A DNA stretch of 36,838 bases from a virus: positions 1 through 36,838 of IMG/VR virus record IMGVR_UViG_3300043470_000555. One strand, written 5' to 3'. Numbering within the stretch: the first letter of the stretch is position 1; each line of letters begins with the position of its first letter. The notes beneath the pieces were generated by a model. It saw nothing but the letters and a program-made list of their open reading frames with translations, made no database searches and had not been told where the DNA came from. Below are positions 18,601 through 36,838 of this stretch, in pieces. Both the position numbers and the translations under genes were made by a program.

Positions 18601-19623
18601 CAATCTGGATCTGCTGTTGCTCAAGGTTTCCAGGGACTTCAAGGTACTTCAGGCTCTGCTGTTGCACAAGGTTATCAAGGTATACAAGGACAGTCTGGAT
18701 CTGCTGTAGCCCAAGGTTTCCAGGGACTTCAAGGTACTTCAGGGCAAAGTTTCAACCAAGGCTTACAAGGTGTTCAAGGACAATCTGGTAATGCGGTTGC
18801 TCAAGGTTTCCAAGGACTTCAAGGTACTTCTGGTCAAAGCTTTAATCAAGGTCTCCAAGGTATTCAGGGTGTTCAGGGCGGCGGAGGTGTTATTGGTAAC
18901 CAAGGTCTACAAGGTCGCCAAGGTGTCCAAGGAACTATTGGTGGTCAAGGTATTCAAGGTCTTTCAGGTGTAAGTTTCAACCAAGGTCTCCAAGGTCTAC
19001 AAGGTCGCCAAGGTGTACAAGGAACTATTGGTGGTCAAGGTCTTTCAGGTGTTGGTGCTAACGGTTCACAGGGTATCCAAGGTATCCAAGGTATTCAAGG
19101 TCGCCAAGGTATTCAGGGTACTTTAGGTCTGCAAGGTATAACAGGAGTTGGGTCACAAGGTATTCAAGGGATCTTTGGTATCCAAGGTATTCAAGGTACT
19201 ACAGGTGTTACTGCCGACCAAACAGTAAATACTTCGAGTAACGTACGATTTAACAGTCTTGGGGTAGGAACTACCGCATCTGGAACTGCAGGTGAAATTA
19301 GAGCAACTAATAATATTACTGCTTATTATTCCGATGATAGACTTAAAACTAGACTTGGGTTAATTGAAAATGCACTTGAAAAAGTTAAAACACTTGATGG
19401 TTTCTATTATGAAGCAAATGAAATTGCTCAGAGAATGGGTTACAAACCAATAAGAGAAGTCGGTATTTCTGCTCAGAAAGTGAAAGAAATTTTACCAGAA
19501 ATTGTTGCTCCAGCTCCAATTGATGAAAGATATCTGACTGTAAGATATGAAAAAATAGTTCCACTTCTAATTGAAGCAATTAAAGAACTATCTGTAAAAA
19601 TTGAAAGTCTGGAAGGGAAATAA
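15631..19623 (+). CDS. Gln-rich collagen-like long tail fibre with S74 chaperone
   Basis: A 1330-residue fibre. Residues 1-55 are a globular start (with FVYYSNGTLWIRLNEG). From residue 56 the chain is collagen-like Gly-X-Y, with Gln overwhelmingly at Y (GIQ, GLQ, GTQ, GVQ, GPQ). Two globular interruptions break the collagen at about 354-415 and 778-829. They are related to each other: each has a PxLTxIGS start and a LWVYDGVNW segment. The third collagen part (about 830-1193) adds GQSGSAVAQGFQGLQG-type longer units. The C-terminus is an S74 domain (YYSDDRLKTRLG, putative nucleophile Ser1234, final helix LLIEAIKELSVKIESLEGK), which would trimerise the fibre, as a collagen triple helix needs. 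It is the likely gp37-like distal fibre, since an adhesin gene follows directly. Confidence 0.88.
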   Translation: MAFRTIRGKTSLLGQGSKLETPINLDPQNFEGAIVYGDDTFVYYSNGTLWIRLNEGLQGLQGLQGIQGLQGFQGLQGIPGQGLQGLQGYQGIQGIQGQVGQGIQGIQGPQGIQGEQGTQGIQGPQGIQGQQGIQGTQGIIGPQGLQGSQGVQGNQGIQGQQGIQGSTGEQGIQGLVGQQGLQGIQGSIGIQGIQGAQGIQGTQGIQGTQGTQGEQGIQGTQGEQGIQGIQGTIGPQGIQGTQGNQGTQGVQGTQGNQGTQGVQGTQGIQGTQGPQGIQGLVGQQGLQGIQGSIGTQGIQGTQGTQGIQGPQGTQGVQGIQGYQGIQGSQGIQGPQGTQGVQGTQGRQGLQGTYGPSLTIIGSVLDVSNYTPPDDEQDVLNTAFNTAVAGNGVIDQASGNLWVYDGVNWNNVGQIQGPQGAQGTQGITGSGIQGIIGSQGIQGNQGIQGPQGTQGTQGIQGPQGIQGPQGIQGSIGIQGIQGPQGIQGTQGTQGIQGSIGSQGIQGSIGFQGIQGTQGEQGVQGIQGLIGTQGIQGPQGIQGTQGRQGIQGLFGIQGNQGIQGNQGIQGLFGIQGIQGIQGSIGIQGIQGPQGIQGSQGIQGIQGSIGAQGIQGTQGIQGTQGIIGSQGIQGNQGTQGIQGQVGQGIQGLQGPQGQQGVQGTQGPQGTQGVQGQIGQQGIQGSQGVQGIQGILGNQGIQGISGFVGAVGSQGVQGIQGLFGNQGIQGRQGIIGPIGVQGLRGAQGVQGTQGTQGVQGLQGLVGQGIQGLQGVQGTFGPALTVIGSISVASDAALKIAFPSAVSGNAVIETSTGKLWVYDGVNWSEVGQFVGAQGIQGRQGVQGIQGLVGQGIQGIQGPQGTQGLQGVQGIQGSTGSQGRQGVQGIQGLVGQGLQGLQGRQGIQGVPGSFAAQGIQGVQGISGQSFNQGLQGVQGTQGRQGFQGISGQSFNQGVQGVQGQSGSAVLQGFQGLQGTDGLFAGQGIQGRQGVQGQSGSAVAQGFQGLQGTSGSAVAQGYQGIQGQSGSAVAQGFQGLQGTSGQSFNQGLQGVQGQSGNAVAQGFQGLQGTSGQSFNQGLQGIQGVQGGGGVIGNQGLQGRQGVQGTIGGQGIQGLSGVSFNQGLQGLQGRQGVQGTIGGQGLSGVGANGSQGIQGIQGIQGRQGIQGTLGLQGITGVGSQGIQGIFGIQGIQGTTGVTADQTVNTSSNVRFNSLGVGTTASGTAGEIRATNNITAYYSDDRLKTRLGLIENALEKVKTLDGFYYEANEIAQRMGYKPIREVGISAQKVKEILPEIVAPAPIDERYLTVRYEKIVPLLIEAIKELSVKIESLEGK
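15796..19210 (+). repeat. Gly-X-Gln collagen-coding tandem repeat tract
   Basis: Degenerate 9-base units of the type CAAGGTATT repeat over about 3.4 kb, interrupted at about 16690-16875 and 17962-18115 by the two globular inserts. Exact longer repeats lie inside it: a 36-base unit occurs twice in tandem at 16345-16380 and 16381-16416, and a ~60-base block at about 16150 recurs with few changes at about 16468. Confidence 0.9.
16345..16416 (+). repeat. Perfect 36-bp tandem duplication in the Gln-rich collagen tract
   Basis: The 36-base unit at 16345-16380 is repeated exactly at 16381-16416. It encodes GTQGNQGTQGVQ twice in a row. The lack of any silent change suggests recent slippage or recombination. 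Confidence 0.85.
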
Positions 19624-21420: not shown

Positions 21421-22746
21421 ATGATACCTGTAAATAGTCTCATTACAAAATTAAATTCTGCTATAGCAACTGGTGGATTGACTAGTCTTGAATTAGCACA
21501 AGTTTTTGGTGCAATAGAATCAATAGAAAAAAGTGGTATAGGAGTTGTTACTGCAACTTTAAATTTACCGCCTGCTGCCAATAATAAAGGTAGATTTGTA
21601 TACATCACTTCTGAAAGTAAATATGTATATAGCAATGGTATTACTTGGGACATTAATAATATACTTAGATTTCCAGATGCCAATGGATATGCATGGGGCA
21701 CCGCTGTCTATGGTAGACTTGGCGATGGTACTACTGTTGCTAAATCATCACCTGTTTCTGTAATAGGTGGTTTTACAGATTGGGTTCAACTAAATGCTGG
21801 CTCTCAACATAGTTTTGGTATTCGTGCAAATGGGACTGCATGGGCGTGGGGTGCCGCCACCTCGGGAAAACTAGGTGATGGAACAACTGTTTCTAAATCA
21901 TCTCCTGTATCGGTTGCAGGTGGGTACACTGATTGGGTTCAAGTAAGTGCAGGTGCCACACATAGTCTTGGCTTAAGAGCAAATGGGACTGCGTGGGCAT
22001 GGGGCGCTGGTACAAACGGAAGACTTGGTGACAACACTGCAGTAGCAAAATCGGCTCCTGTATCGGTTGCAGGTGGTTTTATAGATTGGGTGCAAGTAAG
22101 TGCTGGCGCCATTCATAGTCTCGGTGTAAGAGCAAATGGAACCGCATGGGCTTGGGGTTCTGGTGCAAGTGGTATTTTGGGGGACAATACCACAGTATCC
22201 AAATCGTCTCCAGTTTTGGTGGTAGGTGGCTTTACAGATTGGATTCAAGTAAGTGCTGGTGCCACACATAGTCTTGGCTTAAGAGCAAATGGAACTGCTT
22301 GGGCATGGGGGCCGAGCACAAATGGCAGACTTGGTGATGGAACAATAGTTTCTAAATTGTCTCCAGTTTCAGTGGTAGGTGGTTTTACGGATTGGATTCA
22401 AGTAAGTGCGGGCGGCTTGAGCAGCGGGCATAGTGTCGGTCTTCGAGCTAATGGAACTGCTTGGGCATGGGGTTATAATACTAACGGTCAATTAGGTGAT
22501 GGTACGGTTTCATCTAGAACATCACCAGTATCTGTAGTTGGTGGTTTTACAGATTGGGTTCAAGTAAATGCCGGGACCTCTAATAGTGTCGGTCTTCGAG
22601 CTAATGGAACTGCTTGGGCTTGGGGTGCTGCTATTTTAGGTGACAACACGGCAGTAGGTAAATTGTCTCCAGTATCTATAGTGGGATCCCTCAATTGGGT
22701 TCAAATAAGCACAAATGTTGCCCATATGTTAGGAATTAAAGCATGA
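21421..22746 (+). CDS. Seven-repeat RCC1 beta-propeller protein 1
   Basis: A 441-residue protein with an ~85-residue N-terminal part (helical hairpin LITKLNSAIATGG ... FGAIESIEKSG, then a strand motif FVYITSESKYVYSNGITW) and seven tandem RCC1-type repeats of about 51 residues. The repeat core reads SPVSVVGGFTDW, then VQVSAG, HSLGLRANG and TAWAWG, ending in GRLGDGT. Seven repeats is exactly one closed seven-bladed propeller. The fifth repeat has a small insertion (AGGLSSGHS) and the last is shortened. In eukaryotes RCC1 is a Ran exchange factor; here, among fibre genes, a receptor-binding head is the more reasonable inference. The stop overlaps the next start (ATGA). Confidence 0.88.
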   Translation: MIPVNSLITKLNSAIATGGLTSLELAQVFGAIESIEKSGIGVVTATLNLPPAANNKGRFVYITSESKYVYSNGITWDINNILRFPDANGYAWGTAVYGRLGDGTTVAKSSPVSVIGGFTDWVQLNAGSQHSFGIRANGTAWAWGAATSGKLGDGTTVSKSSPVSVAGGYTDWVQVSAGATHSLGLRANGTAWAWGAGTNGRLGDNTAVAKSAPVSVAGGFIDWVQVSAGAIHSLGVRANGTAWAWGSGASGILGDNTTVSKSSPVLVVGGFTDWIQVSAGATHSLGLRANGTAWAWGPSTNGRLGDGTIVSKLSPVSVVGGFTDWIQVSAGGLSSGHSVGLRANGTAWAWGYNTNGQLGDGTVSSRTSPVSVVGGFTDWVQVNAGTSNSVGLRANGTAWAWGAAILGDNTAVGKLSPVSIVGSLNWVQISTNVAHMLGIKA

Positions 22747-24077
22747 CAGCAATATTAAATATTATTGAAATTATAGTAGATAAAATTACTAATTCTACAA
22801 CAGAACAAGAATTTCTATTCCTTTCTAAGATTATAGAAAAATTAAATGTAAATAAAGTAAAAACTGTAACTTTATATACAGATATGTTTGATGATTCTTA
22901 TACATATGGTGATCTGTATTTTGTAGAAACTGAAAATTCTCTATATTATAGTTTTGGCCCTAATAGACTTAAGGTAGTAGAAGGAAGTCCAAGTCTATTC
23001 TCATTTGGCGAAAATGGATCTGGACAATTAGGCGATAATACCGGTATAGGAAAGCAATCACCAGTTTCAGTAGTTGGTGGTTTTACAGATTGGATTTATT
23101 CGAGTTCTGGATTTAGTCATAATCATGTAATTAGATCTAATGGTACTTTATGGGGTTGGGGATATAACGGCAACGGCCGAATAGGTGACAATACTGTTAC
23201 AGTTAGATCATCACCTGTATCTGTTGTAGGTGGTTTTACAGATTGGACAGAAGTAAGTGCTGGAAATGCATTTTCTCTAGGTTTAAGAGCAAACGGAACT
23301 GCCTGGGCCTGGGGTAATAATACTAGGGGCCAATTAGGTGATGAAACAATAGTTTCTAAATTATCTCCTGTATCTGTAGTCGGTGGTTATGTTGATTGGA
23401 TTCAAGTAAGTGCTGGGCCAGCCTCATTCCCGCATAGTGTAGGTTTAAGAGCAAACGGAACTGCCTGGTCCTGGGGTAATAATGGTAACGGACAGCTTGG
23501 AGATAACACTTTAGTATCCAAATCTTCCCCTGTATCGGTTGTAGGTGGTTTTACAGATTGGACACAAGTAAGCGCCGGAGGTTACCATAGTTTGGGAATT
23601 AGAGAAAATGGAACTGCGTGGGCGTGGGGAGCGAACACAAATGGAAGACTTGGTGATAATACTACAGTAGGTAAATCGTCTCCAGTGTCAGTAGTTGGTG
23701 GGTACACTGATTGGGTTCAAGTAAGTGCAGGTGATCGTCATAATCTCGGTATAAGAGCAAATGGAACTGCTTGGGCATGGGGTTATAATCTATATGGAAG
23801 ACTTGGCGATGGAACGACTGTTTCTAAATCATCTCCTGTGTCAGTTGTAGGTGGTTTTACAGATTGGGTTCAAGTAAGTGCTAATATACATAGTGTAGGA
23901 TTAAGATTAAATGGTACAGCATGGGGCTGGGGTGGAAATGGTAGTGGCCGCTTAGGTGATGGTACTGTTACTAGTAGATTATCACCAGCATCTGTCATTG
24001 GTGGATTTGGCAATTTTAATGATTGGGTTCAACTAAATGCTGGTGGTGCATTTAGTGTCGGTATAAGAACATTATAA
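22743..24077 (+). CDS. Seven-repeat RCC1 beta-propeller protein 2
   Basis: A 444-residue paralogue of its neighbours. The N-terminal ~80 residues (ILNIIEIIVDKITNSTTEQE ... FLSKIIEKLNVNKV, then DLYFVETENSLYYSFGPN) have the same helix-then-strand plan as in propeller 1 but quite different residues. Seven repeats of about 51 residues follow, starting at LFSFGENGSGQLGD and ending in FNDWVQLNAGGAFSVGIRTL. Insertions occur in repeat 3 (GPASFPHS) and repeat 7 (GGFGNFND). The repeats are much more alike across the three genes than the N-terminal parts, as expected if repeats recombine or are under common constraint. It is coupled to propeller 1 by ATGA. Role inferred: fibre head or virion-surface adhesin. 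Confidence 0.88.
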   Translation: MTAILNIIEIIVDKITNSTTEQEFLFLSKIIEKLNVNKVKTVTLYTDMFDDSYTYGDLYFVETENSLYYSFGPNRLKVVEGSPSLFSFGENGSGQLGDNTGIGKQSPVSVVGGFTDWIYSSSGFSHNHVIRSNGTLWGWGYNGNGRIGDNTVTVRSSPVSVVGGFTDWTEVSAGNAFSLGLRANGTAWAWGNNTRGQLGDETIVSKLSPVSVVGGYVDWIQVSAGPASFPHSVGLRANGTAWSWGNNGNGQLGDNTLVSKSSPVSVVGGFTDWTQVSAGGYHSLGIRENGTAWAWGANTNGRLGDNTTVGKSSPVSVVGGYTDWVQVSAGDRHNLGIRANGTAWAWGYNLYGRLGDGTTVSKSSPVSVVGGFTDWVQVSANIHSVGLRLNGTAWGWGGNGSGRLGDGTVTSRLSPASVIGGFGNFNDWVQLNAGGAFSVGIRTL

Positions 24078-24094: not shown

Positions 24095-24733
24095 ATGTCA
24101 TATGGAATAGTACACAAAAATAGAGTAGTTGTAGGACCAATGGCTTGGTCCCAAAAGTATTTTACATCAGCTCTTAAAATTCGTCATAAAATAGATGCAA
24201 ATATACCTGGCATTGAACCAGAAATATTGCCATATGTAATTGACAATGATACTAAAATTCATAGAGTTGTCGAAAATAGACCAGAATTAAATACTATGAT
24301 TCATTATTATTATGGCCCAATTTGGGATTTTTCTAATGATATTATAATTGCAAATTATGAAGTAAAAGATATTTCTATTGAAGTTGCAAAAGATAATTTT
24401 AGATCGGTATTGGCATCTGAAAGATACAAAAAAGAAATTTCAAATACTAAATTGACTTTACAAAATCTTGAAATAACCATTGATACCTCCCGAGAAAGAA
24501 GAAATGTATACATACAAAAGTTTTTAACTATGAATGATGGTGAAGTAATAAATTGGAAATTTTCCGAAGGTTGGTTAACTATATCTAAAGAAGAATTAAG
24601 TATTATAGCTAAAGCATGTGCAGATTATATTCAAGATACATTTAATTGGGAAAAGTCATTAAATGAGCAAATTGATTCTTGCTTAACTACTGAAGAACTT
24701 TTAAATTTAGATTTTATTAACAAATTGGCTTAA
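24095..24733 (+). CDS. DUF4376-type tail fibre assembly protein
   Basis: A 212-residue protein. The C-terminal ~110 residues have the DUF4376 pattern: an RYKKEISNTKLTLQNLEITI start, a beta hairpin with MNDGEVINWKFSEGWLTISK, then helices AKACADYIQDTFNWEKSLNEQ ending in TTEELLNLDF. DUF4376 proteins sit beside phage fibre genes and are regarded as assembly factors. The N-terminal ~90 residues (GIVHKNRVVVGPMAWSQKYF ...) form a separate domain that I do not recognise. The gene lies between the second and third RCC1 genes, so it may help these heads fold or attach. AAGGAT at 24081-24086 is the ribosome-binding site. Confidence 0.7.
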   Translation: MSYGIVHKNRVVVGPMAWSQKYFTSALKIRHKIDANIPGIEPEILPYVIDNDTKIHRVVENRPELNTMIHYYYGPIWDFSNDIIIANYEVKDISIEVAKDNFRSVLASERYKKEISNTKLTLQNLEITIDTSRERRNVYIQKFLTMNDGEVINWKFSEGWLTISKEELSIIAKACADYIQDTFNWEKSLNEQIDSCLTTEELLNLDFINKLA

Positions 24734-24738
24734 GTATA

Positions 24739-26226
24739 ATGGTATCAATAGTTAAAACAAATGCTGTAACAGAATTAGGTACATTAATAAGTGGATTATC
24801 TCTTTCTACCGAGACAACCAGTGAATTAGTTTTAATCCTAAAGACTGCATCTTTGGGTGATGTAGATTCTTCAACAATAAAAACAGAATTATTATCTAGA
24901 TTAAATTCTGCTAATACTGCTACTAGTTTGGAAGAAATTGCTACATTAACAGCAGCTCTTCATCTTATAACTGAAAATAGAACAATTTTTGTAACAGATT
25001 TAACAGATTTAACTTTATTACAAGTAGATCCAGGTACAGTTGTTTTTGTTATAAATGAAAATTTACCATATGTTTATAGAAGTGATGATACTTGGGTTTT
25101 ACTATTTCCAACATTGCAAAATCCAAAACCTTTAAATAATCTTTGGACTTGGGGTACGAATACTAACGGACAGTTGGGTGATGCAACAACAGTTTCTAAA
25201 TCATCTCCGGTATCTGTAGTCGGTGATTATGTTGATTGGGTTCAAGTAGAAGCATTATCTTCTCATACTGTTGCTTTAAGAGCAAATGGAACCGCTTGGG
25301 CTTGGGGTCTTAATGATACAGGGCAACTAGGTGATGGAACTACAGTTTCTAAATCATCTCCTGTATCTGTAGTCGGCGGTTTTAGTGATTGGACCCAACT
25401 TAGTGGTGGATTTAAACACAGTTTAGGATTAAGAGGAAATGGAACATTATGGGCATGGGGTTATAATTTTGCTGGAGAACTTGGAGATGGTACTACAGTA
25501 GATAAATCATCACCAGTTTCAGTTGTAGGTGGTTTCACTAATTGGACACAAGTAAGTTCAGGGCAGAGACATATTGTAGCTCTCAGAGCAAATGGGACCG
25601 CATGGGGTTGGGGTGATAATTCATTCGGAAGAATTGGTGATGGTACTACAGCAAATAGTTCGTCACCTGTATCAGTAGTAGGTGGATTTACTAATTGGAT
25701 ACAAGTAAGTGGCGGTGGGGTACACAGTTTGGGTGTCCAAGCAAACGGAACTGCTTGGGCTTGGGGTGGTAATTCAGCTGGTTCGTTAGGAGACGGTACA
25801 ACAACAAATACATCATCCCCAGTATCAGTTGTTGGTGGTTTTACTGATTGGACACAAGTAAGTGCTGGAAGTAATCATAGTTTAGGACTAAAATCAAATG
25901 GAATTGCTTATGCCTGGGGTTCTGGTCAAGATGGAAAATTAGGTGATGATACTGTTGTGGCTAAATCATCACCAGTATTAGTTGTCGGCGGTTTTACCGA
26001 TTGGGTACAATTGGATGGAGGGCAGTCACATAGTCTAGGTTTAAGAGCAAACGGAACCGCGTGGGCTTGGGGAATTAATACAGCTGGAGAATTGGGAGAT
26101 AATACCGCAACAACAAACACATCATCACCTGTATCAGTTGTTGGTGGTTTTACTGATTGGGTGCAAATAAGTGCCGCAACTTCAGTCGGTACCTCGACAC
26201 ATAGTGCAGGAATCCGCGGCGGCTAA
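24739..26226 (+). CDS. Seven-repeat RCC1 beta-propeller protein 3
   Basis: A 495-residue paralogue with the longest N-terminal part of the three (about 130 residues): two helical segments (ELGTLISGLSLSTETTSELV and SLEEIATLTAALHLITENR), then a strand motif VVFVINENLPYVYRSDDTW. Seven RCC1 repeats follow, from LWTWGTNTNGQLGD to the end. Repeats 4, 5 and 7 use a different linker (TTANSSSPV, TTTNTSSPV and TATTNTSSPV) from the TVSKSSPV type common in the other two genes. The last repeat has an insertion (AATSVGTSTHS). It starts five bases after the DUF4376 stop. It closes the operon: a late promoter lies five bases beyond its stop. Confidence 0.88.
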   Translation: MVSIVKTNAVTELGTLISGLSLSTETTSELVLILKTASLGDVDSSTIKTELLSRLNSANTATSLEEIATLTAALHLITENRTIFVTDLTDLTLLQVDPGTVVFVINENLPYVYRSDDTWVLLFPTLQNPKPLNNLWTWGTNTNGQLGDATTVSKSSPVSVVGDYVDWVQVEALSSHTVALRANGTAWAWGLNDTGQLGDGTTVSKSSPVSVVGGFSDWTQLSGGFKHSLGLRGNGTLWAWGYNFAGELGDGTTVDKSSPVSVVGGFTNWTQVSSGQRHIVALRANGTAWGWGDNSFGRIGDGTTANSSSPVSVVGGFTNWIQVSGGGVHSLGVQANGTAWAWGGNSAGSLGDGTTTNTSSPVSVVGGFTDWTQVSAGSNHSLGLKSNGIAYAWGSGQDGKLGDDTVVAKSSPVLVVGGFTDWVQLDGGQSHSLGLRANGTAWAWGINTAGELGDNTATTNTSSPVSVVGGFTDWVQISAATSVGTSTHSAGIRGG

Positions 26227-26230
26227 TCTA

Positions 26231-26238
26231 TATAAATA
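26231..26238 (+). promoter_or_regulatory. T4-type late promoter for the sugar-modification operon
   Basis: Exact TATAAATA, 39 bases before the ATG at 26270, in the 43-base gap after the third RCC1 gene. A strong GAGGTG ribosome-binding site follows (26257-26262). It would drive the nine-gene set 26270-32510. Confidence 0.7.
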
Positions 26239-26269
26239 AATCTATATTATTACTATGAGGTGAAAAATT

Positions 26270-26815
26270 ATGAAACTAAATATTGGTGCCGGAGATACAA
26301 AACTCGAAGGCTTTATTACATTTGATTACGATAAAAATGCAAATCCAGATTACATCGTAAATTTAGAAAAAGATAAGTTTCCACTTGAAGATAATTCGGT
26401 AGAAACAGTGGTTGCTCATCATATTCTAGAGCATCTTGGTGATGGCTACTTCCATTGCCTTAAAGAACTATATCGTGTATGTAAACACGGTGCAATACTA
26501 GATATTCGTGTTCCACACCCTAGACATGATTCATTCCTTGCAGATCCAACACACAGAAGACCAATTACTGTAGTTGGATTACAGCTTTTCAGTCAAAAAT
26601 TCAATAAACACTGTCGTGAAGAAGGTTATGCTTCTTCTCGGCTTGGTGAATACTTTGAAGTTGATTTTGAAGTTTTGGATTATAGATACACACCAGACGA
26701 TAATGCAAGATTAAAACTTCAAAATTTATCTGCACAAGAAATTGAAGATTATGCAAATGAGCATAATAATATTGTTAGTGAAATTCAGATTAAATTAATT
26801 GTAAATAAAGAATGA
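26270..26815 (+). CDS. Class I SAM-dependent methyltransferase
   Basis: A 181-residue protein of the small phage methyltransferase type. Motif I is LNIGAGDT (residues 3-10) followed by an acidic strand end (FITFDYD) that would hold the ribose of S-adenosylmethionine. The post-motif region reads FPLEDNSVETVVAHHILEHL with the conserved HxLEH, then LKELYRVCKHGAILDIRVPH. The substrate cannot be read from sequence. As first gene of an operon with two glycosyltransferases, a sulfotransferase and ADP-heptose genes, a sugar or glycan substrate is reasonable. It has the strongest ribosome-binding site in the operon (GAGGTG). The stop overlaps the next start (ATGA). Confidence 0.82.
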   Translation: MKLNIGAGDTKLEGFITFDYDKNANPDYIVNLEKDKFPLEDNSVETVVAHHILEHLGDGYFHCLKELYRVCKHGAILDIRVPHPRHDSFLADPTHRRPITVVGLQLFSQKFNKHCREEGYASSRLGEYFEVDFEVLDYRYTPDDNARLKLQNLSAQEIEDYANEHNNIVSEIQIKLIVNKE

Positions 26816-28146
26816 TAGAATATCTTAAACCCGTCGTAATAGACTTAATAAATTGTGATGAACGAAAAAAGGCATGGGATCTGATTGATTTTTATCTATC
26901 TCATGCCAAAACAATATCTGATTATGATGCGCTCGGATATGTATCTTTAAAATCTGATAAGAGAGATACATATTTACATTGTGCAGAAGCAACATATGCA
27001 CTTGCAAATACACCAGAACAAATATATAATACTAGAATTAATCTATACAAAGCATATAATATGATGAACTATCCAGAAAAAGCATTGTATTATATAGAAC
27101 ACAATTTAAGTATTAAACCTGAAGATTTTGATGCATTATGTCAAAAGGCTTCTAATATTTCTTTACTTGGAGATAAAGAAAAGGCAGAACAAATTATATT
27201 TGATTTAATGGATAAATTTCCACAAAGAAAATATGATCTAGATGTTATGCTTTGCGGAAAATATTTGCGTGAAGGGCAATTAAAGAAAGGCATGCATGCC
27301 TTTCTTGGAAAATATAAAGGTAATGGTGTATTTTCTGATAAGCTAAAAATGACACAGTGGGATGGTATTATAAGCCCAGGTAAAACAATATATGTTGATG
27401 GAGAAGGTGGAATTGGAGATGAAATAATCAATATACGTTTCTTTGATTATCTTAAAAAATTTGGAATGCGACCAATTTTATACTCTGTAGGAAAATACAG
27501 AAAAGATACAAATTCACTTTTCCACAGGCACGGTTATGAAATAGTAAATGATATATATTCTATAGATCCTCGATGCACATGGGTGCCATTAATGAGCATT
27601 CCATCAGTTTTAGACTTAACTGAAGATGATCTTTGGAAAGGTACTTATTTAAAACCTTTGAAAAATCCAAAGAATATAATAAAATCAGACAAATTCAAAA
27701 TAGGCATTAAATGCTCTGGGAATCCATATTTTGCACAGGATGAATATAGAAAAATTGCAATAGAACAGATGTTAAGTTATCTTCCAGAAAATTCTGAAAT
27801 CTATTACATCGACAAGGAAGAAAAGAATCATCCGCGAGTAATAGATTTAAGTTCTAGAATTGAAAGCTGGGAAGATACACTCGACTTCATAGATCAGATG
27901 GATTGTATTGTATCTTCGTGCACAAGTCTAGTACACGCAGCAGGTGCTATGGGAAAAACTACATTTGTTGCTATTCCTATTGCTGAATATTACATATGGA
28001 CAACAAGTAGAAAAGATAATTCATCTCCTTGGTATGGTGATAATTTTAAAGTTATGAGACAAACTAAAATCAGAGATTGGGATAATCCACTTTCCGAAAT
28101 AAGTAAACACGTTATTAAATTAATGAATGAGGTGAAACGTGACTAA
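26812..28146 (+). CDS. TPR protein with GT-B (GT9/OGT-like) glycosyltransferase domain
   Basis: A 444-residue two-part protein. Residues about 40-170 contain TPR-like helical pairs (for example NMMNYPEKALYYIEHNLSIK and SLLGDKEKAEQIIFDLMDKF). Residues about 185-435 look like a GT-B transferase: YVDGEGGIGDEIINIRFF (near 195-212) resembles the heptosyltransferase GxGxGD start, and MDCIVSSCTSLVHAAGAMGK near 370-390 is the nucleotide-sugar-binding segment of GT9/OGT-type enzymes. The TPR-plus-GT-B plan is that of O-GlcNAc-transferase-like protein glycosyltransferases, so the acceptor may be a protein such as a fibre (inference). The GT9-like motif would suit a heptose donor, and ADP-heptose genes lie downstream. 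Stop overlaps the next start. Confidence 0.75.
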   Translation: MIEYLKPVVIDLINCDERKKAWDLIDFYLSHAKTISDYDALGYVSLKSDKRDTYLHCAEATYALANTPEQIYNTRINLYKAYNMMNYPEKALYYIEHNLSIKPEDFDALCQKASNISLLGDKEKAEQIIFDLMDKFPQRKYDLDVMLCGKYLREGQLKKGMHAFLGKYKGNGVFSDKLKMTQWDGIISPGKTIYVDGEGGIGDEIINIRFFDYLKKFGMRPILYSVGKYRKDTNSLFHRHGYEIVNDIYSIDPRCTWVPLMSIPSVLDLTEDDLWKGTYLKPLKNPKNIIKSDKFKIGIKCSGNPYFAQDEYRKIAIEQMLSYLPENSEIYYIDKEEKNHPRVIDLSSRIESWEDTLDFIDQMDCIVSSCTSLVHAAGAMGKTTFVAIPIAEYYIWTTSRKDNSSPWYGDNFKVMRQTKIRDWDNPLSEISKHVIKLMNEVKRD

Positions 28147-28909
28147 ACAATACCATTTTATTACTGGCCTTCCAAGATCTGGCTCGACCCTTTTGAGTTC
28201 TATTCTTAGACAAAATCCAAATTTCCATTCTTCAATTACAGATCCACTTGCAATGATGGTGAAAGGTATTATTGAAACTTCAAATGATGGACCTGGAATA
28301 AAAGTCGAAGTTCCAGTTGAACGAAGAAAGAATACTATAGGAGGATTATTTGAAGGATTTTATAAACACATTGACAAACCAGTAATCTTTAATACTAACA
28401 GGGCATGGACTCTTCTTACCCCACAAATTAAAGATATGTTTCCAAAATCAAAGCTTTTGGTATGTGTTCGTGATATAAATTGGATTATTGATTCATTTGA
28501 AACTGCTCACAGAAAAAATCCATTTACGGTGAATACTGTTACTGGCGGACTTGACGGTACTGTTTATTCAAGAGTAGAATTACTCATGGAAGAAAAAGGT
28601 ATTGTAGGTTTTCCTTATCTAGGACTTAAACAAGCAATTACAAGTTCTGAAAAGAATATGCTAATGCTTATTGAATACAATGAATTATGTAAAAATCCTG
28701 AAAGAATGATGAAATCAATTTACAATTTCATCGGTCAAGATTATTATGAACACGACTTTGATGATGTCGAAGCAAGTTGGGATGAATATGATGCAGAAAT
28801 TGGAATTAATTTACATCAAGTACGCAAGAAAGTAGAGTTTATTCCTAGACAATTTATTATACCACCTGATATTCTTCAAAAGTATTCCAATATGGAAGTC
28901 TGGCGATAA
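28139..28909 (+). CDS. Sulfotransferase
   Basis: A 256-residue PAPS-dependent sulfotransferase. The N-terminal 5'-phosphosulfate loop is very clear: FITGLPRSGSTLLSSIL (residues 7-23). The 3'-phosphate-binding region follows a strand as LLVCVRDINWIIDSFETAHR (about 102-122), with the usual Arg and the Asp/Ser. The C-terminus (ERMMKSIYNFIGQDYYEHDF) fits the family's late helix. The start is GTG at 28139, overlapping the upstream stop. No signal peptide is seen, so it should act in the cytoplasm. The acceptor is unknown; sulfation of a sugar on a phage fibre or on host surface glycan is the likely use given the neighbours. Stop and next start overlap as TAATG. Confidence 0.82.
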   Translation: MTKQYHFITGLPRSGSTLLSSILRQNPNFHSSITDPLAMMVKGIIETSNDGPGIKVEVPVERRKNTIGGLFEGFYKHIDKPVIFNTNRAWTLLTPQIKDMFPKSKLLVCVRDINWIIDSFETAHRKNPFTVNTVTGGLDGTVYSRVELLMEEKGIVGFPYLGLKQAITSSEKNMLMLIEYNELCKNPERMMKSIYNFIGQDYYEHDFDDVEASWDEYDAEIGINLHQVRKKVEFIPRQFIIPPDILQKYSNMEVWR

Positions 28910-29688
28910 TGTCTTTAGATATTATTCTAAGAACTTGTGATCATTCAAATGTTCATGCCGATTGGAGAGTTCGGTATGTAGATAAAACAAAAATGGATAT
29001 CATCAAAGGATGTGTTAAATCATTACTGAATAGTTGTAAACGACTTGATAATGTTTCTATAACTATACTTGATGATCATTCAAGTGATGAAACTGTAAAT
29101 TGGTTAGAAACCGAGTTGAATAATAGTAAAATACCAGGTAAGTTAATAAGACTAGAAGGTGTAGGTTATAATAATTCATCACACGAACAATGGAAACTTT
29201 GTCGAGATAGTAATGCAGATTTAGTCTATTCAATAGAAGATGATTATTTACATTGCTCAACAGCAATACAAGAAATGATAGATTCTTTTGAATTATTCTC
29301 TCATAGATTAAAAAGAGATGATATTGTCTTATATCCGTTTGACGAACCTTCGGAATATAATCCACCAAATAGAAAAGATTTTATAGTTCATGGGTCTGCA
29401 AGACATTGGAGAACAGGTGTATTTACAACCCAAGTTCTTTTCTGCAAGCCAAAACTATTTAGAGAACATTGGGATTTATTTGAAACATTGTCTCTCAAAT
29501 ATAATGGAGATTACTTAAATCCTCGCACTGAACACTTTGAGGAATCAAATACGATTTGGAAATTATGGACTGAAGGCAATATAATTAGATTTAATCCCAT
29601 ACCCAGTCTTGCATTACATTTGCAATTCATAGAACAGAAAGACCCATTTATCAATTGGGAAGAATGGTGGAGAGAATACACAAAATGA
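28909..29688 (+). CDS. Family 2 (GT-A) glycosyltransferase
   Basis: A 259-residue GT-A type transferase. The N-terminal LDIILRTCDHSN is the first strand, SITILDDHSSDET (about 51-63) is the nucleotide-binding DDxSxD segment of GT2 enzymes, and LVYSIEDDYLHC with E110-D111-D112 supplies the metal-binding DxD-type motif. There are no transmembrane helices, so it is a soluble transferase. The sugar and acceptor cannot be read. It sits between the sulfotransferase and a gene of unknown function, with stop/start overlaps on both sides (TAATG and ATGA), and is clearly part of the modification operon. Confidence 0.8.
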   Translation: MSLDIILRTCDHSNVHADWRVRYVDKTKMDIIKGCVKSLLNSCKRLDNVSITILDDHSSDETVNWLETELNNSKIPGKLIRLEGVGYNNSSHEQWKLCRDSNADLVYSIEDDYLHCSTAIQEMIDSFELFSHRLKRDDIVLYPFDEPSEYNPPNRKDFIVHGSARHWRTGVFTTQVLFCKPKLFREHWDLFETLSLKYNGDYLNPRTEHFEESNTIWKLWTEGNIIRFNPIPSLALHLQFIEQKDPFINWEEWWREYTK

Positions 29689-30227
29689 GCAATAATTTTC
29701 CTGTAAATAGATCAGTTATTAACTATATACACGCTCGAGATTATTTCCCAAAAGGTGAAATTGAATCCCTTCGTCCATTAGTAAACGATGTTCATTGGAC
29801 CGAAAAGAAATTCGGCCAAGAAATGGAACACTTTAATCTAATCTTTAAAGATATTGATATTGTTCTCGGAAAAATGTCTGGTGATCTTTTAGAAATAGAT
29901 CGACCAAATTCTGGAACTTTAAGAAAAACAATGCACGAAATCATACACTTTGAAGATTTTGAAGATCTTAATGATTGGCGCTTTATTGTTGCATTAGATG
30001 AGAATGAGTTTAAAACATATATTCACAAAGATGGTTATAAGAGTTTATTGGATTACATTAAAGATGAAAATGAAGAAAAACCGATGTTAGAATATTTAAA
30101 TAAAGAACACTGGGAAGAAGAAGCAACTATCAAGATGAAACCAAATGATGTTCTATTTTATAGACCATGGCTATTTCATTCATTTCAAGATGGTATTCTA
30201 CACTACTACAAATTAAAGGTTATTTAA
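29685..30227 (+). CDS. Unknown protein, possible double-stranded beta-helix (oxygenase-like) fold
   Basis: A 180-residue protein. I chose the ATG at 29685 because it forms an ATGA overlap with the upstream stop; an in-frame ATG at 29655 would add ten residues read from inside the previous gene. The C-terminal MKPNDVLFYRPWLFHSFQDG resembles the last part of the double-stranded beta-helix of 2-oxoglutarate/Fe(II) oxygenases, with a possible distal His, and MHEIIHFEDFEDLNDWRFIVAL might hold the other metal ligands. The canonical HxD is not clear, so an enzyme call is not safe. It is coupled to the adenylyltransferase by TAATG. Function unknown; a sugar-tailoring role would fit the operon. Confidence 0.55.
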   Translation: MSNNFPVNRSVINYIHARDYFPKGEIESLRPLVNDVHWTEKKFGQEMEHFNLIFKDIDIVLGKMSGDLLEIDRPNSGTLRKTMHEIIHFEDFEDLNDWRFIVALDENEFKTYIHKDGYKSLLDYIKDENEEKPMLEYLNKEHWEEEATIKMKPNDVLFYRPWLFHSFQDGILHYYKLKVI

Positions 30228-30634
30228 TGCGGGTTTTTGTGAATGGATCATTTGACCTTTTACACACAGGACATCTAGATCTACTATTTTATGCCAAAAG
30301 TCTCGGTAAACACTTGCATGTTGCAATAGACTCAGATGAACGAATACAAGAATTAAAAGGTTTTGATAGACCTGTAAACCCTTTACATATCCGAAAGGCT
30401 ATCATGCATGCTCTCAAGCCAGTCGATAGTGTGAGTGTATTTAGCACCGATGAGGACTTGATAAATACCATCAGAGGTTATTCACCAGACATTATGGTGA
30501 AGGGTTCTGATTGGGTCGGTAAAAAAGTTATCGGATCAGAATACTGTGGAAAAGTTATATTTTATGAGAGAGTGAACAATGAATCCACCACAAAAATCAT
30601 TCAAAATTTTATTGATCGGCGACAGTTGCTATGA
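30227..30634 (+). CDS. hldE-C (rfaE2-like): Heptose 1-phosphate adenylyltransferase (HldE C-domain type)
   Basis: A 135-residue nucleotidyltransferase, the size of the C-terminal domain of E. coli HldE. MRVFVNGSFDLLHTGH carries the HxGH motif (His13, His16). It matches the HldE C-domain segment by segment: ALEAVD-type and RPVNPL segments (DRPVNPLHIRKAIMHAL), a PDIMVKGSDW segment, and NESTTKIIQNF for the ATP-loop ISTTxII-type signature. The reaction in that family is heptose 1-phosphate plus ATP to ADP-heptose. The ATG at 30227 is the natural start because it overlaps the upstream stop (TAATG); the in-frame ATG at 30167 lies inside the previous gene. In E. coli this domain is fused to the kinase; here it is a separate gene placed before it. 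Confidence 0.85.
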   Translation: MRVFVNGSFDLLHTGHLDLLFYAKSLGKHLHVAIDSDERIQELKGFDRPVNPLHIRKAIMHALKPVDSVSVFSTDEDLINTIRGYSPDIMVKGSDWVGKKVIGSEYCGKVIFYERVNNESTTKIIQNFIDRRQLL

Positions 30635-31349
30635 TGTATATCACTTTGGTGAAGTCAAACGGATAAGTCCAGAAGCTCCAATTCCAATCTTTGATCTGAA
30701 ATATTCAACAAAGAAATATGGAATGGCTTCAAATGTGTACGAGAACTTGAAAGCACTCGGTGCGACCGTTCATATACACACAAGTTTCAAAGAAACAAAG
30801 AATCGCTATATAGATATCAAGTCAAAACAGCAACTTTTACGTGTTGATGAAAAGAACAATAAAACTGATTTTAATGAAATCGAGTATGAATATATTGAAT
30901 ATGATTCGTATGATGCAATAGTTATTTCAGATTATGGCAAAGGTTTCTTCAATAGATCAGATTATGATATTCTAAGAGAAAATTTTGAAGGCCCTATTTT
31001 CATAGATACTAAAGATTCTTATCTGGATCATTACGAAGGTGCTATTGTCAAAATAAATCAACATGAATATGAAAAATCTGATAAAGGTTTTAGATTAGAA
31101 AATCTTATTGTCACTTACGGTGGTGAAAAAGTGACATGGAAGGATAAAGTATTTTATCCACCGAAAGTAGAAACACATGACGTATGTGGGGCAGGTGATA
31201 CATTTTTGGCAGCACTTGCTATAAGATATCTCGAATCTGAATCACTAGAAGAATCAATCGAATTTGCAATGAATGCAGCTGCGGTCACTGTAAAACATAC
31301 AGGGGTTTATGCTCCTACAAGAGAGGAAATAGAACATGACAAGACTTGA
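30579..31349 (+). CDS. hldE-N (rfaE1-like): Heptose 7-phosphate kinase (HldE N-domain type, PfkB family)
   Basis: A 256-residue PfkB/ribokinase-family protein. KRISPEAPIPIF near residue 28 is the signature of the HldE kinase domain, followed by a GMASNVYENLKALGA segment and IVISDYGKGFF. The catalytic loop is DVCGAGDTFLAAL with the base Asp207 in GAGD. HldE kinase phosphorylates D-glycero-D-manno-heptose 7-phosphate at C1. At 256 residues it is shorter than the E. coli kinase domain (about 315), mostly through a short middle. Its start overlaps the upstream gene by 56 bases in another frame, with GAGAGAG as a possible ribosome-binding site just upstream. The end overlaps the cupin gene by 14 bases. 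Confidence 0.85.
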   Translation: MNPPQKSFKILLIGDSCYDVYHFGEVKRISPEAPIPIFDLKYSTKKYGMASNVYENLKALGATVHIHTSFKETKNRYIDIKSKQQLLRVDEKNNKTDFNEIEYEYIEYDSYDAIVISDYGKGFFNRSDYDILRENFEGPIFIDTKDSYLDHYEGAIVKINQHEYEKSDKGFRLENLIVTYGGEKVTWKDKVFYPPKVETHDVCGAGDTFLAALAIRYLESESLEESIEFAMNAAAVTVKHTGVYAPTREEIEHDKT

Positions 31350-31695
31350 AGGGCGAATAGAAAAAGGCTGGGGAAGTGAACTAATTTGGGCAACAAATGA
31401 TAAGTATTGTGGAAAGTTACTACACTTTAAGAATGATGCAAAATTTTCAATGCACTTTCATGCTGAAAAAGATGAAACGTGGTATATCTTAACAGGTAAA
31501 TTCATTGTTAGTTGGATAGATACAAAAACAGCGGAAAAGAAATCACTAGAATTGAGACCTGGTTCTACATGGAGAAATGTACCTCTTGTACCTCACCAAT
31601 TAGAGTGTCTTGAAGAAGGTACAATCATTGAGGTTTCAACACCAGATTCAGTTGAAGATAACTATAGAGTTAGCCCAGGAGACAGTCAAAAATGA
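31336..31695 (+). CDS. Small cupin, sugar-phosphate isomerase-like
   Basis: A 119-residue single-domain cupin. The first cupin motif is SMHFHAEKDETWYILTG, with metal ligands His40, His42 and Glu47, and the second is RPGSTWRNVPLVPHQLE with His87. The GWGSELIWATNDKYCGKLLHF start is like small mannose-6-phosphate-isomerase-type and other sugar cupins. All four usual metal ligands are present, so it should be active. The operon has the HldE kinase and adenylyltransferase and HldD but no GmhA (heptose isomerase) in this window, so an isomerase or epimerase step on a sugar phosphate is an attractive but unproven role. It overlaps both neighbours (14 bases upstream, ATGA downstream). Confidence 0.75.
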   Translation: MTRLEGRIEKGWGSELIWATNDKYCGKLLHFKNDAKFSMHFHAEKDETWYILTGKFIVSWIDTKTAEKKSLELRPGSTWRNVPLVPHQLECLEEGTIIEVSTPDSVEDNYRVSPGDSQK

Positions 31696-32510
31696 AAGTA
31701 TTAGTAACTGGTCACAAAGGCTTTATCGGCCAAAATATGTGTAAGGCTATTCTTGCTGAAGGTTGGGAGTTGGAAACTTTTGATATAGTCGATAATCCAA
31801 CAGCAAGACCAAAAGATCTAAATTATGATGGTGTTAATTGTGTCATGCATTTAGGTGCAATCAGTTCTACAACAGAGACTGATGTTCATAAAATTATGGA
31901 CTTGAATTTGTGTTGGTCTATAGAACTATTAGAAGAATGCAGAGAAAGAGGGATTGATATGCAATTTGCATCTTCTGCATCTGTATATGGTCAAAATAGA
32001 AATGCTAGAATTTTATGTGAAGATGACATTTGCTATCCTGTAAATTATTATGCACTCAGTAAATACATGTTCGAGAAATATGCAAATAAAAGAACTTATG
32101 TTGCATCTACATTACAAATTTTCCGATATTTCAATGTTTATGGTCCGCATGAAGAACACAAAGGATCACAAGCAAGCCCATTTACTCAATTTGCTAAACA
32201 GGCAAAAGAAAATGGTGTGATTAAAATATTTAAAGGTTCTCGTGAGTTTACACGTGATTTTGTGCATGTAGATACAGTAGTTGCTGCACACATACGAGCT
32301 TTAAGTAAAATAGATCTATTTGCTGGGGGAACCTATAATGTTGGTTCAGGCTATTCAAGAAGTTTTCTTGATGTTGCCAAAGACATTGCCCTCTTGTATA
32401 ATGCAGAGATAAAAGAAATTCCATTTCCTGAAAATCTTAAAGAACATTATCAGTATCACACCCAAGCAGATATTAGTAAATTAAATGATTTATTATTTTA
32501 TGGATTATAA
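31692..32510 (+). CDS. hldD: ADP-glyceromanno-heptose 6-epimerase, HldD-like
   Basis: A 272-residue short-chain (extended) reductase. It has the GHKGFIG nucleotide-binding loop (residues 7-13), an SSAS segment and the YxxxK pair Tyr120/Lys124. Several stretches are specific to HldD rather than general epimerases: LGAISSTTETD, FRYFNVYGP followed by HKGSQAS, EFTRDFVHVDT, and IPFPENLKEHYQYHTQAD, each with a close counterpart in E. coli HldD. HldD converts ADP-D-glycero- to ADP-L-glycero-D-manno-heptose. The protein stops at NDLLFYGL, about 20-30 residues earlier than E. coli HldD (310); a short continuation exists in another frame. Last gene of the modification operon; start overlaps the cupin stop. 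Confidence 0.88.
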   Translation: MKVLVTGHKGFIGQNMCKAILAEGWELETFDIVDNPTARPKDLNYDGVNCVMHLGAISSTTETDVHKIMDLNLCWSIELLEECRERGIDMQFASSASVYGQNRNARILCEDDICYPVNYYALSKYMFEKYANKRTYVASTLQIFRYFNVYGPHEEHKGSQASPFTQFAKQAKENGVIKIFKGSREFTRDFVHVDTVVAAHIRALSKIDLFAGGTYNVGSGYSRSFLDVAKDIALLYNAEIKEIPFPENLKEHYQYHTQADISKLNDLLFYGL

Positions 32511-32554
32511 TCCAATTATACCATACTTTCAGTCTTTGTCAATGGAATAAATAG

Positions 32555-32591
32555 ACACCTTCTATTATAAATAGAAATAAAAGAAGGGTGT
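32555..32591 (+). promoter_or_regulatory. Hairpin hiding the ribosome-binding site, with late promoter in its loop
   Basis: ACACCTTCT (32555-32563) pairs with AGAAGGGTGT (32582-32591) as nine base pairs with one bulged G. The 3' arm contains the GAAGGG ribosome-binding site of the 32597 gene. The 18-base loop (32564-32581) contains TATAAATA. RNA that reads through from the upstream operon would fold and hide the site. RNA started at the late promoter (expected start near 32579) would lack the 5' arm and be free. T4 uses this arrangement for genes such as e and soc. Confidence 0.5.
32566..32573 (+). promoter_or_regulatory. T4-type late promoter for the small structural genes
   Basis: Exact TATAAATA in the 86-base gap between hldD and the next gene, 31 bases before the ATG at 32597. 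It is placed in the loop of the hairpin 32555-32591. Confidence 0.7.
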
Positions 32592-35308: not shown

Positions 35309-36838
35309 ATGACAAAATTTTTATCAGATAGAGTAAAGAAAACTCCACCATCAAAAGTATCTGCAGAAAGATACCAGTTTTTAAAACTTTCAGAAGCTGA
35401 ACCAGATCTTGGGGTGCCAGCTGCAAATAACTATGTACTCACATCTGATACAGATGGAAATAGATTGTGGACTGACTCTGTTATTTTACAAGGTTTTACT
35501 GGATCCAAAGGTGATATAGGATTTACTGGCTCAAAAGGTGATATAGGATTTACTGGATCTTTGGGTTTCACAGGCTCACTTGGCTTTACTGGTTCCAAGG
35601 GTGATATAGGATTTACAGGATCCAAAGGTGATGTAGGTTTCACTGGTTCATTAGGTTTCACTGGATCCAAGGGTGATATCGGATTTACTGGTTCTAGTGG
35701 TTTCACTGGTTCTATTGGATTTACTGGTTCCAAGGGTGACATAGGATTTACTGGATCAAAAGGTGATATAGGTTTCACTGGTTCTATCGGTTTCACTGGA
35801 TCCAAAGGTGACATAGGTTTCACTGGATCCAAGGGTGATATCGGATTTACTGGTTCTAGTGGTTTCACTGGTTCTATTGGATTTACTGGTTCCAAGGGTG
35901 ACATAGGATTTACTGGATCAAAAGGTGACATTGGATTTACTGGTTCAATTGGTTTCACTGGATCATTAGGTTTTACTGGATCTAAAGGTGACATAGGATT
36001 TACTGGTTCTATTGGATTTACTGGATCTATTGGATTTACTGGTTCCAAGGGTGACATAGGATTTACTGGATCAAAAGGTGATATAGGTTTCACTGGTTCA
36101 TTAGGTTTTACAGGCTCCAAAGGTGACATAGGTTTCACTGGATCCAAAGGTGACATTGGATTTACTGGTTCGATTGGTTTCACTGGTTCCAAGGGTGATA
36201 TAGGATTTACAGGATCAAAGGGTGACATTGGATTTACGGGATCTAAAGGTGACATTGGATTTACTGGTTCAATTGGTTTCACTGGATCATTAGGTTTTAC
36301 TGGATCTAAAGGTGACATAGGATTTACTGGTTCTATTGGATTTACTGGATCTAAAGGTGACATAGGATTTACTGGTTCTATTGGATTTACTGGATCATTA
36401 GGTTTCACTGGGTCCAAAGGTGATACAGGATTTACTGGATCATTAGGTTTTACTGGGTCCAAAGGTGACATAGGATTTACTGGTTCGACTGGTTTTACTG
36501 GATCTAAAGGTGACATAGGTTTTACTGGCTCAAAAGGTGACATAGGTTTCACTGGATCATTAGGTTTTACTGGATCTAAAGGTGACATAGGTTTCACTGG
36601 TTCTATCGGATTTACTGGTTCATTAGGTTTCACTGGTTCTATCGGTTTCACTGGATCCAAAGGTGATACTGGTTTCACTGGATCTATCGGTTTCACAGGT
36701 TCACAAGGTTTCACAGGTTCAAAGGGTGATATAGGTTTTACTGGATCTATAGGTTTTACTGGATCTAAAGGTGATATAGGATTTACTGGTTCCAAGGGTG
36801 ACATAGGATTTACTGGATCAAAAGGTGATATAGGTTTC
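35309..36838 (+). CDS. Proline-free KGD collagen-like fibre, 5' part (runs off window)
   Basis: An ATG at 35309, five bases after the previous stop, opens a frame of 510 codons that is still open at the window edge. Residues 1-61 are globular ([20 protein letters not shown] ... [20 protein letters not shown], then DGNRLWTD). From residue 62 everything visible is Gly-X-Y collagen: mainly GFT-GSK-GDI nonapeptides mixed with GFT-GSL or GFT-GSI hexapeptides. I see no proline in the collagen part. Lys-Gly-Asp is repeated many times; Lys-Gly-Asp/Glu is known to stabilise bacterial-type collagens through axial salt bridges without hydroxyproline. It is the third gene of module B, as the Gln-rich collagen is of module A. 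The C-terminus, perhaps with an S74 domain, lies outside. Confidence 0.85.
35492..36838 (+). repeat. KGD collagen-coding tandem repeat tract
   Basis: Near-identical 9-base units (GGATTTACT, GGATCCAAA, GGTGACATA and variants) run to the window edge. A 115-base stretch is repeated without any mismatch at 35652-35766 and 35814-35928 (offset 162 bases, a multiple of nine). A further block of about 60 bases near 35719 recurs near 36037 and at the window end from about 36779. Confidence 0.9.

Follow-up and report, generated by a model that had tools for sequence, protein, structure and literature searches.

Which molecule is modified by enzymes for sugar, sulfate and methyl transfer when a phage encodes them between its fibre genes? 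The question is raised by IMG/VR virus record IMGVR_UViG_3300043470_000555 (36,838 bases; this whole stretch is called the window here), a fragment with T4-type baseplate wedge genes at its left and a gp6 protein nearest to that of Sinorhizobium phage phiM7 (37%; cyanophages about 31%). Its positions 26270-32510 hold an operon of nine open reading frames (ORFs), all on the plus strand, whose junctions overlap by 4, 8, 1, 4, 1, 56, 14 and 4 bases in that order, and fibre-type genes border it on both sides; an initial annotation had described nine coupled genes between two fibre regions, and this layout was confirmed. We consider it rather probable that one part of the operon, termed module A below, is a dedicated system for glycosylation and sulfation of the RCC1-repeat fibre proteins encoded next to it. 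The genes concerned are:

21421-22746, 22743-24077 and 24739-26226, plus strand: three RCC1-repeat (beta-propeller) fibre-type genes (PF00415, 6-7 stretches each, E ≤ 2e-48)
24095-24733, plus strand: DUF4376 gene, among the RCC1 genes
26270-26815, plus strand: methyltransferase (MT) P0001 (PF08241, phrog_6636)
26812-28146, plus strand: TPR and GT-B glycosyltransferase (GT) P0002 (predicted model, fold comparison)
28139-28909, plus strand: sulfotransferase (ST) P0003 of the 3'-phosphoadenosine 5'-phosphosulfate (PAPS) type (PF13469, PF00685)
28909-29688, plus strand: GT2-type glycosyltransferase P0004 (PF00535)
29685-30227, plus strand: 2-oxoglutarate (2OG)-Fe(II) oxygenase-fold protein P0005 (predicted model, fold comparison)
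30227-30634, plus strand: HldC-like adenylyltransferase P0006 (TIGR02199)
30579-31349, plus strand: HldA-like PfkB kinase P0007, shortened (TIGR02198)
31336-31695, plus strand: cupin P0008 (phrog_7851, alignment)
31692-32510, plus strand: HldD-like epimerase P0009 (TIGR02197)

When the nine operon proteins were compared by tblastn with the fetched loci (numbered L003 to L082 where named here), the operon separated into two parts. Judged by gene content, it is made of module A (methyltransferase, TPR-GT, sulfotransferase and often the GT2 enzyme) and module B (the HldC-like, HldA-like, cupin and HldD-like proteins).

The evidence that carries our reading is the linkage between the TPR-GT and RCC1 genes, whose presence at the loci was scored by profile searches. 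A GT match was found at 56 loci, many of them copies, which at 85% identity fall into 19 lineages that are only partly independent. An RCC1 gene lies within 3.1 kb of the GT in 18 of these 19 lineages (within 0.7 kb in 12 of the 18), the sole lineage without one (L061) having 1,465 bases upstream; five lineages (L066, L068, L073, L074 and L075) were fetched solely by the RCC1 query, and without them the count is 13 of 14. Counted per locus, RCC1 is present in 51 of 56, and the five loci lacking it (L025, L056, L058, L060 and L061) have at most 1.5 kb upstream. The reverse also holds: 11 of 14 loci seeded by the window RCC1 protein (4 of the 14 being near-copies of the window) carry the GT and/or the sulfotransferase, and the remaining three (L065, L067 and L071) end at a contig edge. 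By comparison, RCC1 was found in none of the 15 loci (11 control lineages) that bear hldA without the GT, a set from which L042, a cut copy of the L026-type operon, had been dropped; the Fisher test (P = 9e-8) was computed with L042 still counted as a control lineage. In a set of 50,697 phage records the RCC1 query (E 1e-5) has 20 matches and P0002 (E 0.01) has 5; the 4 records shared by the two are S-SRM01 (twice), AG-345-E08 and BUCT-ZZ01 (P = 9e-14, or 2e-10 without the S-SRM01 duplicate). The single locus obtained in one scan for bacterial P0002 homologues (L077, VGMB01000109.1, 5.9 kb) is filed under a Chlamydiae metagenome-assembled genome and has RCC1 genes on either side of the TPR-GT; it may be phage DNA that was binned wrongly.

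Gene fusions point the same way. In L073 (597 residues) and L075 (590 residues) the sulfotransferase and the TPR-GT form one chain encoded directly behind RCC1, and in BUCT-ZZ01, which infects Synechococcus elongatus PCC 7942, the TPR-GT is fused to the methyltransferase behind an RCC1 ('BNR repeat') gene. Fusion in one species of genes that are separate in others is commonly a sign of joint action. The initial annotation had proposed a fibre-type target, and both the two-way linkage and the protein-glycosyltransferase build of P0002 (see below) speak for it. The search that it proposed, for the same operon beside fibre genes in related phages, showed module A recurring beside RCC1 genes, mostly without the heptose cassette of module B.

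Besides the partial dependence among lineages, several observations weigh against this reading. Five phages with distant RCC1 proteins (L078-L082) have neither the GT nor the sulfotransferase in about 20 kb; in one of them (L078) the RCC1 gene lies among other glycosyltransferase and methyltransferase genes, and the profiles of the methyltransferase and the epimerase matched weakly; in L082 the RCC1 profile missed the RCC1 protein. The sulfotransferase is less closely tied to RCC1, since of 10 phage records with a match to it only 3 have one to the RCC1 query as well, and L019 and L044 carry it without RCC1. Beside the GT of BUCT-ZZ01 no sulfotransferase was found. A search of whole contigs with the Pfam RCC1 model agrees with the linkage (12 of 12 contigs with the module, among which L003/L004 and L026/L029 are near-duplicates, against 0 of 3 with module B alone and 0 of 14 control genomes), but it used contigs already known from the loci and adds another model, not a new sample.

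Might RCC1 and sugar genes merely reside together in the hypervariable host-recognition region of T4-like phages, with no functional tie? Both gene sets do lie in the plastic fibre region, where other GT genes cluster too (PMC7029224), the RCC1-lacking cyanophages S-SSM7, S-CAM1 and Sf-FS3 have the heptose cassette beside neck genes, and gene order is not fixed in the divergent loci L017, L059 and L074. Such hitch-hiking is hard to reconcile with the order RCC1-MT-GT-ST, which many loci retain at about 60% identity although their settings vary (among non-structural genes in L050, ahead of neck and terminase genes in L053), or with the existence of two kinds of fusion. We regard it as quite unlikely.

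The build of P0002 (444 amino acids) is that expected of an enzyme acting on proteins. No Pfam, NCBIfam or PHROG family matched it at E 0.001, and profile searches gave weak TPR matches in some of its relatives. The model predicted from 15 sequences, those of the window and of viral contigs (pLDDT 89.8, pTM 0.86), consists of a helical TPR-like N-terminal part (about residues 1-165) and a GT-B part (about 190-441). With VIA-align the latter was nearest to Escherichia coli heptosyltransferase II WaaF (1psw; Z 17.5, rmsd 3.3 Å, 233 aligned), then to the Veillonella GT9 enzyme 3tov (Z 17.1), TibC (Z 16.2, rmsd 3.3, 245 aligned; 16.1 for the ADP-heptose complex) and WaaC (Z 15.6), with two plant chloroplast NDH-complex chains (Z 15.4 and 14.0) ranking between these and other glycosyltransferases and epimerases (Z ≤ 11.4); this ranking holds among the matches listed and leaves room for other families. 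A Foldseek search with the whole chain had SPY and O-GlcNAc transferases in its top rows (E 6e-7 and up), at TM-scores of only 0.2-0.4. These are the classical protein glycosyltransferases that combine TPR with GT-B. By its predicted model, P0002 is likewise a protein of OGT/FlmG-like architecture, with an N-terminal TPR and a C-terminal GT-B domain in one chain.

On that model the GT-B fold is closest to GT9 structures. PF01075 (GT9) matched none of 17 P0002 family members at E ≤ 0.1, and P0002 is therefore named heptosyltransferase-like and not a GT9 member. Asp203 is invariant in the 17, and the alignment of the model with WaaC starts at 191/1, an offset that, going by these alignment ranges, would fit the catalytic Asp of WaaC, D13. 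In addition, P0002 reads C-T-S-x-x-H where WaaC has D-T-G-x-x-H; this and the missing GT9 match count against a heptosyltransferase. TibC (PDB 4rap, 4rb4), among the catalytic folds closest to P0002, puts heptose from ADP-heptose on a protein of repetitive beta structure. It differs in being dodecameric with iron, according to the structure title, in lacking a TPR domain and in having a beta-helix adhesin as acceptor. FlmG of Caulobacter crescentus offers the closer parallel in domain order, and its TPR domain is by itself able to bind the flagellins that serve as acceptors (PMC7591256). It acts in the cytoplasm on a surface filament, as would P0002 in the proposed scheme; FlmG differs in its flagellin acceptor and pseudaminic acid, where the GT domain of P0002 is heptosyltransferase-like, and P0002 in being phage-borne with sulfotransferase and methyltransferase neighbours.

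Are the RCC1 proteins fibres, and are they the acceptors? In the window their genes, all three with PF00415 repeats, sit among baseplate and fibre genes, and a tail-fibre-family gene accompanies RCC1 genes in several relatives (L053). They are most likely virion fibres, to judge from this context, and we propose them as the acceptors. Examined for an acceptor site, the 324 RCC1 repeats collected contain many conserved Ser/Thr and an NGT, with only 5 control repeats to compare against. One point counts against the assignment as fibres: the eleven RCC1-like proteins of the jumbo phage phAPEC6 are proposed to order DNA in the capsid (PMC7247149). That proposal suggests an alternative in which the enzymes modify internal DNA-organising proteins; in a related alternative their products go elsewhere, as a small sulfated sugar metabolite, a metabolite having been proposed for a related cyanophage cluster (PMC7824862), or as a DNA modification. 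We consider these alternatives very unlikely: the window and many relatives place RCC1 among fibre genes with DUF4376 or a tail-fibre-family gene, and Pfam, NCBIfam and PHROG scans found no DNA-modification family in the operon. The literature searched (few subscription journals or preprints, and partly titles and abstract starts) held no link between RCC1 phage proteins and a glycosyltransferase or sulfotransferase.

The window has further fibre-type genes. One at 11644-12885 encodes a protein with an S74 endosialidase chaperone domain at its C-terminus, and long genes with collagen-like repeats (GxQGIQG and GFTGSKGDI) flank the operon at 15631-19623 and 35309-36838.

The other genes ahead of module B were assigned by profile or fold. 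P0001 matches PF08241 (27.1 bits, cut-off 21.2) and resembles the C-terminal part of the BUCT-ZZ01 fusion protein UTS52179.1 (33.5% over 182 columns, E 1.5e-29). P0003 matches PF13469 (52.1, cut-off 27) and PF00685 (42.8, cut-off 22), and its residues G10, P12, R13, G15, R111 and S119, which we take to have PAPS-motif roles, are invariant across 15 aligned relatives; by family match and motifs it is a PAPS-dependent sulfotransferase. Its profile is closest among PDB entries to protein-tyrosine sulfotransferases (5e-8), which would also suit direct sulfation of the protein; in the scheme we propose, sulfate is placed on the same group as the sugar. Of the 12 module contigs, 4 also encode APS (adenosine 5'-phosphosulfate) kinase, which produces PAPS, and none of the 3 heptose-only contigs does; the gene belongs to the cluster itself in L050 and L074, follows roughly 0.6 kb after L066 ends and is some 29 kb distant in the L055 contig. 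The GT2 assignment of P0004 is marginal (PF00535, 23.5 bits, cut-off 23.3). P0005, the ninth gene, left unnamed in the initial annotation, has a 2OG-Fe(II) oxygenase fold: its model (pLDDT 85.4) aligns with SnoN (5ep9; Z 12.7, rmsd 3.7, 152 aligned) as a double-stranded beta-helix, and of the HxD...H triad H114 and H165 are invariant in 14 sequences, while D116 is present in the window protein and not in all 14.

Two side observations concern genes near these modules. In L050 (a viral contig) the gene at 13053-13886 joins the APS kinase domain to a nucleotidyltransferase-like domain. A small gene family is found at L026 12172-12963 and L053 13536-14471, both with weak Glyco_transf_9 matches below cut-off, and at L007 8718-9665, which was grouped with them by eye (N-terminus).

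Which sugar is transferred? The initial annotation saw one heptose pathway operon, and for module B its enzyme families were upheld. P0006 matches CTP_transf_like (55.9 bits, cut-off 21) and has TIGR02199 (HldC) as best NCBIfam family (112.9 bits, 1e-32), ahead of a glycerol-3-phosphate cytidylyltransferase family (60.2 bits); solved structures in the PDB cannot tell the families apart (5x9q, 'putative cytidylyltransferase', at 1.2e-15 and further cytidylyltransferases at 2e-14). P0007 matches PfkB (56.3 bits, cut-off 25.8) and TIGR02198 (HldA) best (134.3 bits, 5e-39), and its family profile has heptose 7-phosphate kinase 4e84 as top PDB match (E 1.2e-34), with ribokinases at 2e-13 or worse. 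P0009 matches Epimerase (118.9 bits, cut-off 20.9), TIGR02197 (HldD) best (208.1 bits, 2e-61) and E. coli HldD 1eq2 as top PDB entry (E 5.8e-42). The proteins are called '-like' because, despite being the best families, all three fall below the curated NCBIfam equivalog cut-offs (HldA 134.3 against 345, HldC 112.9 against 181.5, HldD 208.1 against 274.6 bits). HldE-type functions are indeed present as separate genes in reversed order, P0006 before P0007; the overlap of 56 bases before the kinase recurs in L070 with a similar kinase N-terminus, and L074 has kinase and adenylyltransferase in a single 385-residue protein in HldE order. The cupin P0008 is below its Pfam cut-off (23.5, cut-off 27.2) and matches phrog_7851, with H40, H42, E47 and H87 invariant in 13 sequences. 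Its PDB matches, checked for a GmhA substitute, are mixed (oxalate decarboxylase, quercetinase, D-lyxose isomerase), and a sugar isomerase is a guess.

The pathway is incomplete as found: no match to GmhA (TIGR00441), GmhB (TIGR00213) or the HAD family of the cyanophage cassettes (TIGR01689) was found in the window, itself a fragment, and a GmhA-like match, below cut-off, occurs in 1 of 15 related contigs. Nor is the operon a single indivisible heptose-sulfate unit, an interpretation we rejected since modules A and B occur apart. In the fetched stretches, 17 of the 19 GT lineages have the sulfotransferase, 15 the methyltransferase, 10 GT2 and 5 hldA, and whole or most of module B occurs without module A in cyanophages P-SSM2, S-SSM7, S-CAM1, S-SM2, S-T4 and Sf-FS3; it is also present in viral contigs L005-L011. 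The lack of hldA in 14 of 19 lineages speaks against heptose as the general sugar, as does the fact that S. elongatus, the host species of BUCT-ZZ01, was not among the control genomes matching GmhA; heptose therefore cannot be assumed to be universal. Most relatives have module A with no cassette nearby, and there the donor differs or is supplied by the host. For the window phage, the donor cassette together with the heptosyltransferase-like predicted fold make heptose a likely candidate: that it is the sugar, with ADP-heptose as the likely donor, we judge about evenly balanced.

A related candidate was also discarded. Cyanophage proteins annotated as 'phosphoheptose isomerase' (T4-GC 306) were considered as GmhA, but each of the 7 that were tested turned out to match a HAD phosphatase family (TIGR01689, below cut-off, best E 1e-8; PDB 9iqw, 'capsule biosynthesis protein', E 1e-17), and they have a DxDxT motif in common. 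The public annotation appears to be wrong, as far as these matches tell; that the proteins are GmhB-like in use is a guess. The T4-GC 306 proteins of L012 (15728-16072) and other cyanophages are about 110 amino acids long and HAD phosphatase-like.

We also analysed the promoters, given that the initial annotation had argued for a virion target from late timing. Three elements border the operon:

26231-26238, plus strand: TATAAATA, the T4-type late promoter motif of the operon (motif scan, gap placement)
32515-32542, minus strand: antisense sigma70-type promoter with no mismatch and a TG ahead of the -10 box
32566-32573, plus strand: TATAAATA ahead of the downstream fibre unit

The late motif occurs 11 times in the window, always on the plus strand, a number that is not rare (6.6 expected; 6 of 100 shuffles reach 11), and the evidence for late promoters therefore lies in its placement. 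Six of the 11 matches fall in 6 of the 7 gaps of at least 30 bp between listed genes (binomial P = 1.6e-8), including 26231, 32566 and 33139, and across 20,000 gap shuffles the highest number of gaps with the motif was 4, reached once. The promoter ahead of the operon, claimed by the initial annotation, is convincing by this placement, and the fibre and sugar units of the window thus look like late units. This timing is not conserved in relatives. Among 16 loci, only the window and L051 carry the motif no more than 110 bp ahead of the methyltransferase (the L026 type has it at -115). At this place L052 shows a perfect sigma70 promoter, which 0 of 300 shuffles reach, and sigma70-like matches of 10/12 are seen in L024, L053, L056, L068 and L040, each reached by 2-6% of shuffles. 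A sigma70-like rather than late promoter before the module in several relatives weighs against the timing argument; judged from these motifs, late timing is at most a property of some lineages and supports the target little. In L052, L053, L056 and L068 the arrangement is TTGACA or TTGATT, 17 bases and TATAAT, about 50-60 bp upstream of the methyltransferase, with the late motif absent. The antisense promoter matches at 12/12 positions, lies just before the next late promoter and points into the operon end; perfect sigma70-type promoters are expected 0.04 times in the window, and 3 of 100 shuffles have one. L026, whose HldD is 55% identical, has a perfect one at the equivalent place (18964-18991, minus strand). 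This promoter could drive an RNA that silences the operon early.

The sigma70 promoter of L052 and the weaker ones of five more loci would suit a different role, in which the enzymes change the lipopolysaccharide (LPS) or capsule of the infected cell and so exclude other phages. This is how cyanophage sugar clusters have been read. T4-GC 304, 305, 307 and 308 are described as LPS genes that are maybe functionally linked or 'stuffer DNA' (PMC3037559), cyanophage LPS genes may change the host surface (PMC2984593; also PMC7029224), and sugar clusters are seen as O-antigen variation (PMC7824862). These clusters share the cassette of the window, so that module B is already known in cyanophages as LPS genes; its neighbours are neck genes in S-SSM7, S-CAM1 and Sf-FS3, and in P-SSM2 tail-fibre genes enclose it. 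They differ in that no RCC1 or TPR-GT was found alongside, and in having a HAD phosphatase (six annotated regions) and a carbamoyltransferase (four). LPS core is classically built with heptose and GT9 enzymes, and the absence of RCC1 from the 15 cassette loci, cyanophages included, agrees with a surface role for the cassette. What remodelling of the host surface leaves unexplained is the two-way linkage of TPR-GT and RCC1, the ST-GT and GT-MT fusions beside RCC1 and the acceptor-type TPR domain on the GT. We hold it to be unlikely, if the least so of the alternatives.

In the preferred reading, modification of the RCC1 fibre proteins by module A, the N-terminal TPR domain of P0002 would grip neighbouring RCC1-repeat proteins in the cytoplasm and its C-terminal heptosyltransferase-like GT-B domain would add the first sugar. 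The GT2 enzyme may lengthen it, and the sulfotransferase and methyltransferase would complete the group, unless the sulfotransferase acts on the protein itself. Module B would be a second, exchangeable cassette that boosts the ADP-heptose donor in the window phage. The host would provide the phosphatase and isomerase steps that are missing, the cupin being another possible source of the isomerase. Decorated fibre heads would then likely alter host binding or shield the fibres. As a more tentative generalization, to which we give somewhat less than even weight, this would be a widespread system in which RCC1 fibre proteins are glycosylated (with heptose or another sugar) by the TPR enzyme, sulfated and methylated, interchangeable donor cassettes setting the decoration. 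Glycosyltransferases of mycobacteriophages Che8 and Rita are thought to modify a virion capsid protein (as cited in PMC11256854). The likeness lies in phage-encoded enzymes with a virion protein as target, and the difference in the target being capsid and not fibre. Neither sulfation nor heptose is known there.

The sugar genes of T4-like cyanophages have so far been read as LPS genes of uncertain use or as filler DNA. If our reading is true, the question of what they do would gain a directly testable answer, cytoplasmic protein glycosylation would have phage tail proteins among its substrates, next to flagellins and autotransporters, and sulfation would be a modification of phage virions. Such decoration could affect the host range, how stable the fibres are and how host defences recognise them.

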